A stretch of 64,000 bases of DNA, taken from Planctomycetaceae bacterium. Lineage in GTDB: Bacteria; Planctomycetota; Phycisphaerae; Phycisphaerales; SM1A02. Made by a program: the position numbers and the translations under genes. Under the pieces are notes generated by a model. The model had not been told where the DNA came from, did no database searches, and was given only the letters and a program-made list of their open reading frames with translations. This document shows, one piece after another, positions 19,487-25,978 of this stretch; the stretch's first letter is position 1; each line of letters begins with the position of its first letter. The stretch lies in the NCBI GenBank assembly GCA_021297795.1, contig JAJTGL010000004.1:10843-74842 (forward strand). The letters are read 5' to 3'.

Positions 19487-20533
19487 ATGGCAGGCACCGA
19501 GGTTCTCAATCAATCCGACATCGACGCGCTGTTGAACGCGGCCAGCGAGCCTGCGGCGCCCGTCGAAGCGCCACCGACCCAGATTTTCTCCCGCGCGCGA
19601 CGCGATCGCGACAAGGTCGAGATCCGCCCCTACGACTTCAAGCGGCCCGAGCGCATCTCGAAGGACCAGATGCGTGCGCTCGAGATGCTGCACGAGACCT
19701 TCGCGCGAAACTTCGGAGCGTCGCTCTCGGGCTTCCTCCGCACGATCGTCGAGGTCCGCGTCTCGCACGCGGCGCAGATGACCTACCAGGAGTTCATCGC
19801 GGGACTGCCGAATCCGACGAGCTTCAATCTCGTCCGCTGCCCGCCGCTCGAGGGCCAGATCTGCCTCGAGGTGTCACCGCTGGTCCTCTATCCGATCATC
19901 GATCGCCTTCTCGGCGGCTCGAACAAGGAGCTCTTCGTTCCGCAGCGCCCGATGACGCTCATCGAGACGAAGCTCATCCAGAAGATCCTGCAGCGCGGCA
20001 TGGCGGCGCTGTCGGAGGCCTGGGCCGGCATCCGCAAGATCGAGTTCTCCCTCGGCGAGATGGAGTCGAACCCGCAGTTGGTGCAGATCGTCCCGCCGAA
20101 CGAAGTCGTCGTGGTTATCGGCTTCGAGGTGAAGTTGACGAACCGCGCAGGCCCGATGTCGCTGTGCATCCCGTACAACGCGATCGAACCGCTGATCGAG
20201 GATCTCTCGGCGCAGAGCTGGTTCGTCACCGGAAAGAACCAGACGGCGGGGGGCACGGCGGAGCGCATCGCCGGCGGGCTCTCGGCCGCGAAGGTCGAGC
20301 TCGACGCAACCCTCGCAACGACAACGATTTCCCTCTCGGAACTGCGGGCGCTGGAGGTGGGGGACCTGATCGTCACCAACCGACCGGCGTCGTCGCCCGC
20401 GGTGCTTGGCGTCGAGGGCAAGCCGAAGTTCCTCGCGAACGTCGGTCAGTTGCGGGGCAACCGAGCGCTGCGGATCGGTCGGCCCGTTGGCGCGAACGAG
20501 CGCGTCGACCTCGGCGGCGGTTCTATCTCCTGA
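19487..20533 (+). CDS. fliM: Flagellar motor switch protein FliM
   Basis: EVLNQSDIDALLNAA; YDFKRPERISKDQMRALEMLHETFARNFGASLSGFLRTIVEV; MTYQEFIAGLPNPTSFNLV; LGGSNKELFVPQRPMTLIE. Confidence 0.95.
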   Translation: MAGTEVLNQSDIDALLNAASEPAAPVEAPPTQIFSRARRDRDKVEIRPYDFKRPERISKDQMRALEMLHETFARNFGASLSGFLRTIVEVRVSHAAQMTYQEFIAGLPNPTSFNLVRCPPLEGQICLEVSPLVLYPIIDRLLGGSNKELFVPQRPMTLIETKLIQKILQRGMAALSEAWAGIRKIEFSLGEMESNPQLVQIVPPNEVVVVIGFEVKLTNRAGPMSLCIPYNAIEPLIEDLSAQSWFVTGKNQTAGGTAERIAGGLSAAKVELDATLATTTISLSELRALEVGDLIVTNRPASSPAVLGVEGKPKFLANVGQLRGNRALRIGRPVGANERVDLGGGSIS

Positions 20534-20560
20534 TCTGACGACGGGATAGAACAGGCTTCG

Positions 20561-20584
20561 GACTCCGCAGTTCGCTGCGGAGTC
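20561..20584 (+). terminator. 10-bp perfect hairpin with UUCG tetraloop 28 nt after fliM; no U-tract
   Basis: gactccgcag-ttcg-ctgcggagtc. Confidence 0.55.
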
Positions 20585-20629
20585 GGGGTGCGGACGCCGG
20601 GTCGGCCATGACGCAACCATCGCGCCTGA

Positions 20630-20658
20630 TTGACCTTTCGACGCGGGAGCGATATCTT
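20630..20658 (+). promoter_or_regulatory. sigma70-type promoter: TTGACC - 17 nt - TATCTT
   Basis: ttgacc (20630-20635), 17-nt spacer, tatctt (20653-20658); predicted start ~20665, directly at the first stem of the structured region. Confidence 0.6.
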
Positions 20659-20664
20659 TCGGGT

Positions 20665-21108
20665 TCCCTCCGAGGCATGTGTGGCTTCGGAGGGGTGTGT
20701 TCCGGTCAGCGTTGTCTGGCCGGTGTGCGACCGAACGGCGTGTCCCATGCTTTCGATTCCCGGTGACTCAACCCCCCGTGATCCGTCAAGCGGTAGGACC
20801 GTTCGGGCTGGACTCGACCGATGAGGCCTGAGAGGTCTCATCTTCGATTCGGCCCGGGCGCGGCGTGCGGCTTCGCGCAGGTGGATGTTCCGTTCGGACT
20901 TCGGTCCGCGATGGTGCATCCGACGACCTGCGCGGGCGGTGCGGCGATCGCGTTCGACATCCCCGGAGGTGTCCGCAGCATCGCGTGAGTAGCGCGAAGA
21001 AGCCGTCGGATGCAGCCGCGGGTTGGCCCGCGGCGTGTCCGCGGATCGCAGCCGGCCATGCGTGACTCGTGCCAGTGCACGGGTTCAGCGCATGGTCGTG
21101 TTCGTTTT
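20665..21108 (+). ncRNA. Candidate structured noncoding RNA or long nusA leader, class unknown
   Basis: Successive complementary segments: 20666-20673/20687-20694; 20702-20709/20716-20723; 20731-20738/20799-20806; 20821-20829/20833-20841; 20874-20887/20917-20934 enclosing cggac-TTCG-gtccg (20895-20908); gccgcggg-ttgg-cccgcggc (21015-21034); ccatgcg...cgcatgg (21056-21095) enclosing cgtgc-cagt-gcacg, followed by tcgtgttcgtttt. Confidence 0.55.
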
Positions 21109-21208
21109 GCGGCATCGTTTGCGCCGCAGTCAGTTGGGTCGGGTTCCTCCCGGCCGTCTTCGCTCCCGTCGCGACGCTTCGGCGCTCCCGACACACTTCC
21201 GTCTCCAA

Positions 21209-21284
21209 CGCATCGGTTCAGGCCGATGCGCACATCACAACGTCGTGCACCACGCGACGACATCCAAGCCGCGGTTCGCCGCGG
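21209..21284 (+). promoter_or_regulatory. Two further perfect hairpins in the nusA 5' UTR
   Basis: cgcatcgg(ttcagg)ccgatgcg 21209-21230; ccgcgg-ttcg-ccgcgg 21269-21284. Confidence 0.5.
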
Positions 21285-21322
21285 GACAATCCGCAACAAC
21301 CCGACAGAGGAAGCTCGCAATC

Positions 21323-22696
21323 ATGAACGCCGAAACCCTCCGCATCCTCGACTCCATCGCCCGCGACCGGAACATCGACCGGGAGCATCTCTTCCGCGAT
21401 CTCGAGATGGCGATGATCAGCGCCGCGCGCAAGCACTTCGACTCGCTCGACACCGAGGAGTTCGGCTGCGAGATGGACCGCCTCACCGGCCGGATCGCCA
21501 TCTGGCGCAACATCATGGATGAGGAAGGCAACATCGTCGAGCGCGAGAACATCCCGATCGAGCGGCTGGGCCGCATTCCCGCGCAGACCGCGAAGCAGGT
21601 GATGATCCAGAAGTTCCGCGAGGACGAGCGCAACGCCCTCATGGAGGAGTTCGCGAAGCGTCAGGGCGAGATCGTCACCGGCACCGTCGTGCGTCAGGAG
21701 GGCCCGGCCCTCATCGTGCAGGTCGACCGCGCCGAGGCGTTCATGCCGAAGTCCGAGCAGATCCCGGGCGAGATGTTCAAGCCGGGCGACCGCATCCGCT
21801 GCCTCGTGCTCGACGTGCGCGATGCGGGCAGCCAGGTCAAGATCATCCTGTCGCGCGCCTCGCCCGACTTCATCCGCCGCCTCTTCGAGGCCGAGGTCCC
21901 CGAGGTCGCCGAGCGCGTCATCGAGATCAAGGCGCTCGCCCGCGAGCCCGGCCAGCGCTGCAAGGTCGCGGTCGCCAGCGTCGACTCGAAGGTGGACGCG
22001 AAGGGCGCCTGCATCGGCGTGCGCGGCAGCCGCATCCGCAACATCGTCGACGAGGTCAACGGCGAGAAGATCGACATCGTGCTCTGGAACGAGTCGAGCC
22101 AGGTGCTCATCTCGAACGCCGTCCGTCCGGCGGCGGTCGAGGAAGTCAGCCTGTGCCTCGAGCTCGGCCGTGCGACCATCATCGTGCGCGACGACCAGCT
22201 GTCGCTCGCGATCGGCAAGCGCGGACAGAACGTGCGCCTCGCGGCGCGCCTCACCGGCTGGGACATCGACATCCTCACGCCGGCCGAGTTCGCGAAGGGC
22301 CTTGAGATCCTGCAGGAGACGCTGAAGCCGATCGAGGGCGTCAGCGACGAGATGCTCGACAAGCTCGGCGCGCTCGGCATGATCAGCGTGTTCGACGTCG
22401 AGGAGATCGGGCCTCAGCTTCTCGTCGAGGATCTCGGCGTTGATGTCGAGGTCGCCGAGACGATGTGCGCCGCGGCGTCGAACCGTGCGCGCGAGGTCGA
22501 GGTCGAGCGCGAGCGCGAGCAGGCCGAGGCGGCCGCCCGCGCCGCGGAGGATGCGGCCGCGACCGAGGCGATCCTCGGTGGCGGTGCGCCTGGTGCCGAG
22601 CCCGATGCCGAAGCCGAGAGTGCTGCGGACTCGATCCTCGGCACGTCGGCACCGGGCTCGATGCTCGGATCGAGGTCGGCGCGCTCCGATGGATGA
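21323..22696 (+). CDS. nusA: Transcription termination/antitermination protein NusA
   Basis: NusA N-term, S1 and KH domains (GACIGVRGSRIRNIVDEVNGEKIDIVLW; LAIGKRGQNVRLAARLTGWDIDI). Confidence 0.96.
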   Translation: MNAETLRILDSIARDRNIDREHLFRDLEMAMISAARKHFDSLDTEEFGCEMDRLTGRIAIWRNIMDEEGNIVERENIPIERLGRIPAQTAKQVMIQKFREDERNALMEEFAKRQGEIVTGTVVRQEGPALIVQVDRAEAFMPKSEQIPGEMFKPGDRIRCLVLDVRDAGSQVKIILSRASPDFIRRLFEAEVPEVAERVIEIKALAREPGQRCKVAVASVDSKVDAKGACIGVRGSRIRNIVDEVNGEKIDIVLWNESSQVLISNAVRPAAVEEVSLCLELGRATIIVRDDQLSLAIGKRGQNVRLAARLTGWDIDILTPAEFAKGLEILQETLKPIEGVSDEMLDKLGALGMISVFDVEEIGPQLLVEDLGVDVEVAETMCAAASNRAREVEVEREREQAEAAARAAEDAAATEAILGGGAPGAEPDAEAESAADSILGTSAPGSMLGSRSARSDG

Positions 22697-22891: not shown

Positions 22892-25800
22892 TTGTCGAAG
22901 AAACCAGCCCCGCTGAAGGTCCACCAACTTGCGAAGGAGCTCGGTGTGAGCTCCAAGGACATCGTCGCGCGATGCCAGACGGAGGAAATCCCTGACATCG
23001 TGAACCATCTGTCGCCGGTATCCGTCGGCCTCGCGGTCACCATCCGCGAGTGGTTCGCCAACGCCGGTGGCGCCACCGCCACGGCGACGATGGTCGAGGA
23101 ACCGCAGGAGGAGGCCGCATCGGCAGGCGCTGTGAAGCGCAAGGGATCGAACAAGGCGCCCGACGCGTCTTCCGAGAGCAGCGCCGCCGCGGCAACCGCC
23201 GGCTCGTCCGACGAGGGTGGCCGCGTCGTTGCGAAGCGCGCGACGAAGAAGAGCCCGGCGCCTGCTGAGCCGACGCCGGCACCTGCAGCGAAGCCCCGTG
23301 CCGCTGCGAAGGCACCCGTCGCGGACTCGACCGGCAGCGAGTCGTCGACGCCCGCGGCTCCGGTTGCGAGGGCGACCGATGAACCGCCGACGGCTCCGGC
23401 GGTTGCCTCGACGGCGTCGACCGCCTCGTCGCCGAACCCGGCCGCTCCGACCGTCGCCATTCCAGCCGTCGTGACCCCGCCTTCCGTCGCACCGTCGACC
23501 GCGGCGGCTGCTTCGACGGCGAAGACCGAGGTCGCGAAGGCTGCTGCGTCCGTCCCGGCCGCCGCCGGCCCGACCGCTGGCATCCCGTCGGCTGCGACTC
23601 CGTCGACGCCGAGCTACCGCATCCCCGCAGGACTGAGCGCGCGTCCGCAACCGCGTGCGGATCTCGGCGGAGCGAAGCCTTCGCCCGGTGGATCGGCGCC
23701 CGCGACGCCTTCCGCGCCCACGACACCGGCCCCGCGCCGCGTCATCACCGCGCCGCCGCCGCCGCCCTCGTCGCTCACCGACACCTCCGGTGCCAAGCCG
23801 GTGATGAACGTGCCGACGCGTCCGTCGGTGGTCGGCCCCGCCGGCCAGCAGCTCACGAACAAGGAGAAGACGCGGCTCTCGGGTCCGCAGGTGATCCGCG
23901 TCGAGCAGGCCGACAACCTTCCGACTCCGCCTCCGATGCGCCGCACCGGAACGGGCACCGGTGGTGCTCAGGGACGAACGGGTACCGGCGGCCGCGAGAT
24001 TCGCGGCCGTGGCGGCATCGGTTCGTCGCGATCCGGTCGTGCCGGTGAGTCCGCGCGCGTTGCGTTTGGCGCGCAGGACATCCGCGACCGTCAGGCACGT
24101 CTCGATTCATCGCGCGGCTTCATGACGTCGCACCAGCGTGCGGGTCAGCGCTCTCCGATGGGTGGCGGCGGCGGACAGCGTCTTGAGCGCAAGCCCGGCG
24201 AGATCCAGCAGATCCACGTCGCCGAACCGCTCACGATCAAGGAGCTTTCGGCCGCGACCGGCATCAAGGCGACCGACATCATCAAGAAGCTCTTCCTCGG
24301 CGGAACGATGGCGACGATCAACAGCGCCATCGACCGCGAGAAGGCGATCGAGATCATGATGGACTTCGACATCGACCTCGTCGTCGACGAGGCGAAGTCG
24401 GCTGCCGAGATCATCGAGGAGCGCTTCAAGGACCGCGAGCGTGTCGACGAGCGTCGTCGCGCGCCGATCGTGACCATTCTTGGTCACGTCGACCACGGCA
24501 AGACGAGCCTTCTCGACCGGATCCGCAAGACGAACATCGCTGCGGGCGAGGCCGGCGGCATCACCCAGTCGACGCGCGCGTTCTGCGTGCCCGTCAAGTC
24601 GGGTGACGTCGACCGCGTGGTCACCTTCATCGACACCCCTGGTCACGAGGCGTTCACCTCGATGCGCGCCCGCGGCGCGAAGGTGACCGACATCGTGGTG
24701 CTCGTCGTGTCCGCGGTCGACGGCGTCATGCCGCAGACCATCGAGTCGATCCAGCATGCGAAGGCGGCGGGAGTCCCGATCGTCGTCGCGATGAACAAGA
24801 TCGACCGACCCGATGCGAACGAGGCGAACATCCGCCGGCTCCTCGGCCAGCTCGCCGAGAACGGGCTCAACCCGGTCGAGTGGGGTGGCGACACCGAAGT
24901 CATCAAGACGAGCGCGACGCGCGGCGACGGCATCGAGGAACTGCTCGCGATGCTCGACTACCAGGCCGAGCTCCTCGAGCTCAAGGCCGACTTCGGCGGC
25001 ATGGCGCGGGGCACCGTCCTCGAGGCCTCCATCGAGGAGGGCCGCGGTCCGGTGGCGCGCGTCATGGTGCAGGAAGGCCGCCTCAAGAAGGGCGACTTCA
25101 TCGTCATCGGTCGCGGCTACGGCCGCGTGCGCGACATCATCAACGACAAGGGCGAGCGCGTCACCGAGGCGTTCCCCTCGACGCCGGTCGCGCTCTCGGG
25201 CATCGACGAACTCCCCGACGCCGGCGACAAGGCCTTCGTGGTCGAGTCGATCCGCGCCGCCGAGGAGGCCGCCGAGGAGCGTCGTCGCATCGACCGCGAG
25301 CGCGAGCTCGCGGCGCCGAAGATCACGCTCGACAACATCTTCAAGCATCTCGAGAAGCAGGGCCGCAAGGAACTCGCGCTCGTCGTCAAGGGCGACGTGC
25401 AGGGCTCGGTCGAGGCGCTCAAGGGCATGCTCGCGAAGCTGCCGACCGAGGAGGTCGCGATCAGCGTCAAGAGCGCGTCTGCGGGCGGCATCAACGAGTC
25501 CGACGTCACGCTCGCCGAGGCGACGAAGGCGATCATCGTCGGCTTCAACGTCACCTCGAGCGGCAAGGCCCGCCAGATGGCCGAGTCGAAGGGCATCGAG
25601 ATCCGTCTCTACGAAGTCATCTACGACCTCATCGACGACGTCACGAAGGCCGCGCGCGGACTCCTCGCCCCCGAGCTCAAGCTCGAGGTGCTCGGACACG
25701 CCGAGGTCAAGCAGGTGTTCAAGATCTCGAAGGTCGGCGCGATCGCCGGCTGCAACGTGCTCGACGGCGTCGTCGAGCGCAATGCGCAGATCCGCGTCAC

Positions 25801-25978
25801 CCGCGACGGCATCGTCATCGAGAAGGACCGTCGTCTCGAGCAGCTCAAGCGGTTCAAGGACGACGTCAAGGAAGTGCGCGCGGGCATGGAGTGCGGCATG
25901 AAGATCGTCGGTTACGACGACATCAAGGCCGGCGACGTGCTCGAGTGCTACAGGACCGTCACGGTGTCGAGGAGCTGA
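22892..25978 (+). CDS. infB: Translation initiation factor IF-2 (TTG start)
   Basis: Start ttg tcg aag aaa cca with aggagg SD upstream; IF2_N (VHQLAKELGVSSKDIVARC), GHVDHGKTSLLDRIRKTNIAAGEAGGITQ, DTPGHEAF, NKID. Confidence 0.96.
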   Translation: MSKKPAPLKVHQLAKELGVSSKDIVARCQTEEIPDIVNHLSPVSVGLAVTIREWFANAGGATATATMVEEPQEEAASAGAVKRKGSNKAPDASSESSAAAATAGSSDEGGRVVAKRATKKSPAPAEPTPAPAAKPRAAAKAPVADSTGSESSTPAAPVARATDEPPTAPAVASTASTASSPNPAAPTVAIPAVVTPPSVAPSTAAAASTAKTEVAKAAASVPAAAGPTAGIPSAATPSTPSYRIPAGLSARPQPRADLGGAKPSPGGSAPATPSAPTTPAPRRVITAPPPPPSSLTDTSGAKPVMNVPTRPSVVGPAGQQLTNKEKTRLSGPQVIRVEQADNLPTPPPMRRTGTGTGGAQGRTGTGGREIRGRGGIGSSRSGRAGESARVAFGAQDIRDRQARLDSSRGFMTSHQRAGQRSPMGGGGGQRLERKPGEIQQIHVAEPLTIKELSAATGIKATDIIKKLFLGGTMATINSAIDREKAIEIMMDFDIDLVVDEAKSAAEIIEERFKDRERVDERRRAPIVTILGHVDHGKTSLLDRIRKTNIAAGEAGGITQSTRAFCVPVKSGDVDRVVTFIDTPGHEAFTSMRARGAKVTDIVVLVVSAVDGVMPQTIESIQHAKAAGVPIVVAMNKIDRPDANEANIRRLLGQLAENGLNPVEWGGDTEVIKTSATRGDGIEELLAMLDYQAELLELKADFGGMARGTVLEASIEEGRGPVARVMVQEGRLKKGDFIVIGRGYGRVRDIINDKGERVTEAFPSTPVALSGIDELPDAGDKAFVVESIRAAEEAAEERRRIDRERELAAPKITLDNIFKHLEKQGRKELALVVKGDVQGSVEALKGMLAKLPTEEVAISVKSASAGGINESDVTLAEATKAIIVGFNVTSSGKARQMAESKGIEIRLYEVIYDLIDDVTKAARGLLAPELKLEVLGHAEVKQVFKISKVGAIAGCNVLDGVVERNAQIRVTRDGIVIEKDRRLEQLKRFKDDVKEVRAGMECGMKIVGYDDIKAGDVLECYRTVTVSRS

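Follow-up and report, generated by a model that had tools for sequence, protein, structure and literature searches.

It has long been asked how bacteria adjust their levels of NusA and IF2, and an attenuator for the operon concerned was predicted in 2010 (PMC2965389). This system, the rimP-leader, is a terminator ahead of rimP-nusA-infB with NusA proposed as its regulator (Naville and Gautheret 2010, PMC2965389), and neither leader ORFs nor larger conserved elements were part of its description. Autoregulation of the E. coli nusA-infB operon goes back to Nakamura 1985 and Plumbridge 1985, both as cited in PMC2965389. Short ORFs upstream of regulated genes are familiar from leader-peptide attenuators (ilvB1 of M. 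tuberculosis, PMC13236596, and the trp type) and from ribosome-sensing uORFs such as that of topAI (PMC12121999). Here we analyse the gap between fliM and nusA in a planctomycete genome, which, judged from its sequence and that of its relatives, is probably a leader-peptide transcription attenuator of nusA-infB with a terminator like that of the rimP-leader. To our knowledge, no sensor for the control of NusA and IF2 levels has been identified.

The element lies in a 64-kb window (the whole stretch of 64,000 nucleotides analysed; all features given below are on its plus strand), in the gap between the end of fliM at 20533 and the start of nusA at 21323. The presumed regulated gene, nusA (21323..22696), encodes the Pfam domains NusA_N, KH_5 and S1, and the closest solved chain to its product is 4mtn_A, named NusA (E = 5e-113); infB (22892-25978; Pfam IF-2) follows downstream. 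A TTGACC-N17-TATCTT promoter at 20630..20658 is the sole promoter-like site in the scanned interval 20000-21700, with none found between the terminator and 21700. The initial annotation had described the gap, this promoter and a series of stems as a candidate new structured RNA, and all of these are indeed present where it placed them. No tRNA or tmRNA was found in the 64-kb window. The gap also has open frames on the minus strand, 140-160 aa long; these were rejected as genes, since no frame is common to more than three genus genomes.

The RNA falls outside the known families that we compared. Neither the window nor 20 loci of the class reach the gathering score of any Rfam family, and no match at E up to 5-10 is relevant, so that the annotation's expectation of an RNA beyond Rfam is borne out under permissive filters as well. 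A divergent RNase P RNA, tmRNA or SRP RNA, of which the annotation had likewise seen no hallmark motifs at this locus, was rejected because almost every genus member has these RNAs somewhere else in its genome. A 6S RNA is unsupported, with no match in the window and only weak matches elsewhere in the genus.

Conservation within the genus is complete in our sample. In 16/16 genomes, a count that combines a covariance model of the core with a nusA search, the region between fliM and nusA holds the same block, in the order promoter, RNA of ~400-500 nt, and terminator-like hairpin with a U-rich tail, and the promoter is kept as TTGA-N17-TATNYT. A DNA search recovered the block in same-genus genomes, every time between fliM and nusA; the one in G003 was missed by this search and recovered by the core model and the nusA search.

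The leader is also strongly folded. Against dinucleotide shuffles, the control that the annotation had proposed, 20663-21120 has a folding z of -6.28, and 0/100 shuffles are as low. Leaders of ten genus members range from -3.0 to -7.2, and 13 control stretches from the window from -2.4 to +2.6. Four predicted helices covary, three of them local and one long-range, as judged by exchanging arms between genomes, a statistic that ignores the relatedness of those genomes. The 5' hairpin H1 (20666..20694) has 91% of cells paired and 24 both-side changes versus 5.3 under arm swaps (14 genomes). Hairpin H4 (GAUGAGGCC...GGUCUCAUC, 20820..20842) is 95% paired, with 9 both-side changes versus 3.1 (p = 0.0015), and pairing in the terminator hairpin (21053-21098) reaches 98.6%, with 20 versus 7.6 (14 genomes). 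The long-range helix is predicted to join the region upstream of uORF1 (20720..20724, CCGGU in the window and CCGGUCUGC in most relatives) to the foot of the terminator (21048..21055), which it overlaps by ~3 nt. Its 9 aligned pairs with 21047-21055 are 87% paired, with 13 both-side changes versus 4.4, and 0/2000 arm swaps are as good. Compensatory examples include the change from CCGGUC/GACCGG to CUAGUC/GACUAG in L014, and CCGGUCAGC/GCUGACCGG in L006. The window itself has only 5 of these pairs, together with an alternative 7-bp register, UGGCCGG/CCGGCCA.

Of the seven stems that the initial annotation had named, those at 20666-20694, 20820-20842 and 21053-21098 are thus backed by covariation in 14 genomes, and the remainder fare less well. 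The local hairpin CCGGUCAG/CUGGCCGG (20702..20723), evaluated on aligned 5' ends, occurs in only 5/16 genus genomes. The 20731/20799 pairing is invariant among genus genomes and hence without covariation signal, and the stems at 20874-20934 and 21015-21034 lie within a stretch that fails to align between genomes. Two further helices, seg2:seg3 and seg3:seg4, are invariant or nearly so and therefore supply no evidence from covariation. Folding energy, covariation and the absence of an Rfam match together uphold a conserved structured RNA; the annotation did not mention the covarying long-range helix, the genus-wide conservation of the block or the two overlapping short ORFs that the block contains.

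The first of these candidate ORFs, uORF1 (MLSIPGDSTPRDPSSGRTVRAGLDR, 25 codons, 20747..20824), lies in an open frame that is the best-conserved stretch of the leader. The second, uORF2 (55 codons, 20821..20988), begins within the ATGA that also contains the uORF1 stop; this ATGA lies at the base of H4, and the hairpin encloses both signals. The uORF1 stop column is common to 16/16 genus genomes and its ATG to 14/16, with length changing in-frame (25, 28 or 30 codons); any other ORF, on either strand, is common to at most 6 genus genomes. The two ORFs overlap by 4 nt in 16/16, and uORF2, which has no Pfam match, spans 36-88 codons in the genus and ends 24-89 nt upstream of the terminator. Amino-acid selection on uORF substitutions is not significant in the genus (p 0.16-0.29), frame 1 scoring higher, and no clear Shine-Dalgarno sequence precedes uORF1 in genus members. 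Protein-like codon conservation, which the annotation had named as a sign against an RNA gene, is therefore seen in the frame and, in this genus, not detected in the amino acids; we infer that the uORFs are translated in the genus from the conserved frame. The conserved core first taken for noncoding RNA is probably coding, and the noncoding reading is likely a misreading.

The same plan recurs elsewhere in the family, in other genera. Of 48 family leaders, most lie in a noncoding gap of 350-660 nt that precedes nusA and usually follows fliM, and nearly all of these 48 carry a GGNCACG...CGUGNCY hairpin with a U-rich tail. In alignments of sister species, the promoter-to-terminator block is conserved and divergence follows. 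Across 13 sister pairs, the RNA strand has 25 ATG ORFs with start and stop both conserved and the opposite strand 2, and the stop is shared by 26/55 conserved ATGs on the RNA strand versus 2/46 on the other; 12/13 pairs have at least one ORF with start and stop conserved. An overlap of uORF1 and uORF2 reappears in several pairs, of 4, 1 or 11 nt as derived from distances. The pooled test of amino-acid selection in the family is weak (p = 0.064), and codon-position bias is absent. Family uORFs thus appear conserved in frame and not in peptide sequence, which fits regulatory uORFs without proving translation. One close relative, with a 94% identical nusA (L108, CAMDMA010000018.1), carries the deposited title Candidatus Kuenenia stuttgartiensis, which looks wrong, as the nusA of this relative groups with Phycisphaerales.

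In more distant Phycisphaerae, the coding signal of the ORFs reaches significance. In about ten of their leaders, a perfect TTGACA-N16-TATAAT promoter precedes nusA by 307-508 nt. About 26 have a Shine-Dalgarno sequence followed by a conserved uORF1 peptide, M..TGLANSAK (variants include MVLTGLANSAK, MILTGLAKSAK, MMxxTGKVSRAxA and similar), for which the coding test gives p = 0.02-0.03 with the true frame best. All of these ~26 leaders have an overlapping uORF2 of 37-58 codons, whose coding score is reached by 0/200 shuffles in a protein-guided alignment, a procedure that itself favours the true frame. Near the end of uORF2 and ahead of the terminator, five leaders (L152, L166, L168, L169, L174) have a site resembling a minimal ORF, with GGAGG and, 5-8 nt later, an AUG whose frame closes within one to four codons. 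Beyond the genus, the core covariance model has no convincing match in 397 class genomes: its matches are the genus members at the nusA site and one weak match (30.8 bits, at G179:C68), in a genome whose nusA lies elsewhere, at G179:C22. Homology across genera accordingly rests on layout and not on the model, and in layout the predicted leader plan is conserved across the planctomycete class.

In the window the predicted terminator consists of the hairpin at 21053-21098, with the stem CGGCCAUGCG/CGCAUGGUCG, and a U-rich tail at 21099-21108 (GUGUUCGUUUU), which is weak; it has equivalents in nearly all of the 48 family leaders. The GGGc...gCCC stem motif of the rimP-leader is found in many family members (GACGGGCCACG...CGUGGCCCGU), with GUGGG/CCCAC in other Phycisphaerae. 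The distance from terminator to nusA is 84-386 nt in the genus, so that an unseen nusA promoter may lie in between there. In distant Phycisphaerae the terminator is strong and often lies <35 nt before the nusA start, which leaves no space for a promoter, so that transcription would have to read through it into nusA; no other argument for a cis-acting attenuator is as strong.

Comparison across genomes establishes the promoter, the four covarying helices, the ORF pair with its overlap, the position of the terminator and the class-wide plan, and from these sequence features we infer how the attenuator might work. Transcription would start near 20665 and yield a folded leader with the two overlapping ORFs, and the terminator (21053-21108) would set how much transcription reaches nusA. 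Ribosomes translating uORF1 would open H4, with the uORF1 stop and uORF2 start in its ATGA, and uORF2 translation would thereby be coupled to that of uORF1. The position or absence of the ribosome would decide whether the helix linking the region before uORF1 to the terminator foot can form, and its formation would in turn set the strength of the terminator. In other bacteria, NusA makes weak intrinsic terminators stronger, and it probably feeds back at this one. For a nusA-infB operon, it would be natural if control were tied to translation initiation (IF2) or to the NusA level. A more specific version is tentative, and we would sooner bet against it than for it: that the leader is a class-wide translation sensor for nusA-infB, in which IF2-dependent initiation on the coupled leader ORFs sets termination and NusA feeds back at that point.

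Three other explanations must be weighed against the attenuator. The initial annotation had left open a standalone noncoding RNA, the option in its title, or a long nusA leader. A small RNA gene that acts elsewhere, with nusA served by an unseen promoter of its own, would suit the element's own promoter and terminator, its strongly covarying structure, and the long spacer, variable in the genus, downstream of the terminator. It sits poorly, however, with the block preceding nusA wherever it is found (397 class genomes, one weak match aside), with the lack of space in distant relatives for any nusA promoter between terminator and gene, and with conserved ORFs on the RNA strand. We regard it as unlikely; with the block before nusA in 16/16 genus genomes and the class terminator often so close to the gene, the leader option is much better supported.

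A nusA leader of the rimP-leader type could instead be governed by NusA binding and NusA-stimulated termination only, with NusA sites downstream and the short ORFs untranslated. A terminator ahead of nusA is just what PMC2965389 describes, and the region directly before the gene offers a candidate site. Many family members have ACAACUCA repeats there, up to nine in tandem; three leaders (L060, L067, L070, from G425, G433 and G455) have 7-9 tandem copies of ACAACUCA/ACAACCCA in the 100 nt that precede nusA. Of 47 family leaders, 16 have AACYCAA within their final 120 nt, versus 2.0 expected, and of the ACAACYCAACAAC matches across 72 genomes, 25/43 are located in nusA leaders. The AACUCAA core of this motif resembles the RNA co-crystallised with M. 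tuberculosis NusA. NusA may bind the motif RNA (ACAACUCAACA), yet the window has only a weak counterpart, ACAACCC at 21296..21302, so that binding here is just a lead. Since this explanation also leaves the conserved overlapping ORFs and the long structured upstream part unaccounted for, it seems to us improbable as the whole story. The motif was also considered as a boxC-like tie to rRNA antitermination, an idea rejected because AACUCAA is in only 3/20 family rRNA leaders. The rRNA leaders of the family, upstream of 16S rRNA (L188-L213), have CUCUUUGACAAGUGAACAGUUGGG, GCGAGGAUGUG and ACAUCCUUGUGAUGCCA blocks in common. In the family genomes G018, G020, G021, G027, G204 and G428, the match to the 16S rRNA model is interrupted near position 873/874, which may reflect contig ends or an intervening sequence. 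Finally, ribosomes on the uORFs could shield the leader from Rho, with untranslated leaders being Rho-terminated and the hairpin only stabilising RNA ends. Translated uORFs are reported to shape Rho termination in M. tuberculosis, in a reference cited in PMC13236596. Yet the hairpin-plus-U terminator is among the best conserved parts here, and the leader is densely folded. Densely folded RNA is a poor Rho substrate, and we consider this explanation very unlikely.

The attenuator, if correct, comes with a large natural data set, a conserved overlapping ORF pair and covarying helices before a terminator, and with a definite proposal, namely that translation, and not only NusA, reads into the nusA-infB operon. 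Should the translation-sensor version hold, the cell would match a transcription elongation factor and a translation initiation factor to the state of its ribosomes. A literature search of partial coverage turned up no account of ORFs in a nusA leader, nor of such an element in Planctomycetes, and the layout with two mini-genes before nusA is apparently undescribed.

Set beside the known systems, the element resembles the rimP-leader: in both, the 5' UTR of the operon with nusA and infB contains an intrinsic terminator, seen here in genus, family and class. The terminator of the rimP-leader lies 4-130 nt before the first gene and has a G-rich 5' arm and a C-rich 3' arm, and the resemblance extends to the proposed NusA feedback. 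The element differs in that its terminator comes after 300-450 nt of structured leader with two overlapping ORFs, in that its stem motif is GGNCACG and only sometimes GGGC/GCCC, and in that rimP is absent and nusA is the first gene: RimP_N (PF02576) is missing from 21/21 Phycisphaerales genomes (G000 plus 20 relatives) under a search that detects RimP in 10 control bacteria. With E. coli nusA-infB, to the extent that it is reported through PMC2965389, the element shares the operon and a proposed negative feedback by NusA; the leader anatomy differs, and NusA feedback here is only a proposal. Like the topAI uORF, it sets a short ORF and regulatory structure ahead of a gene, although the operon is unrelated and stall sensing belongs to the topAI type, the uORFs here being candidates only. 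With leader-peptide attenuators of the ilvB1 and trp types it shares a short ORF between promoter and terminator and covarying helices that could switch, whereas its ORFs are two and overlapping instead of one, carry no run of a sensing amino acid, and would control factors of transcription and translation where theirs control biosynthesis.
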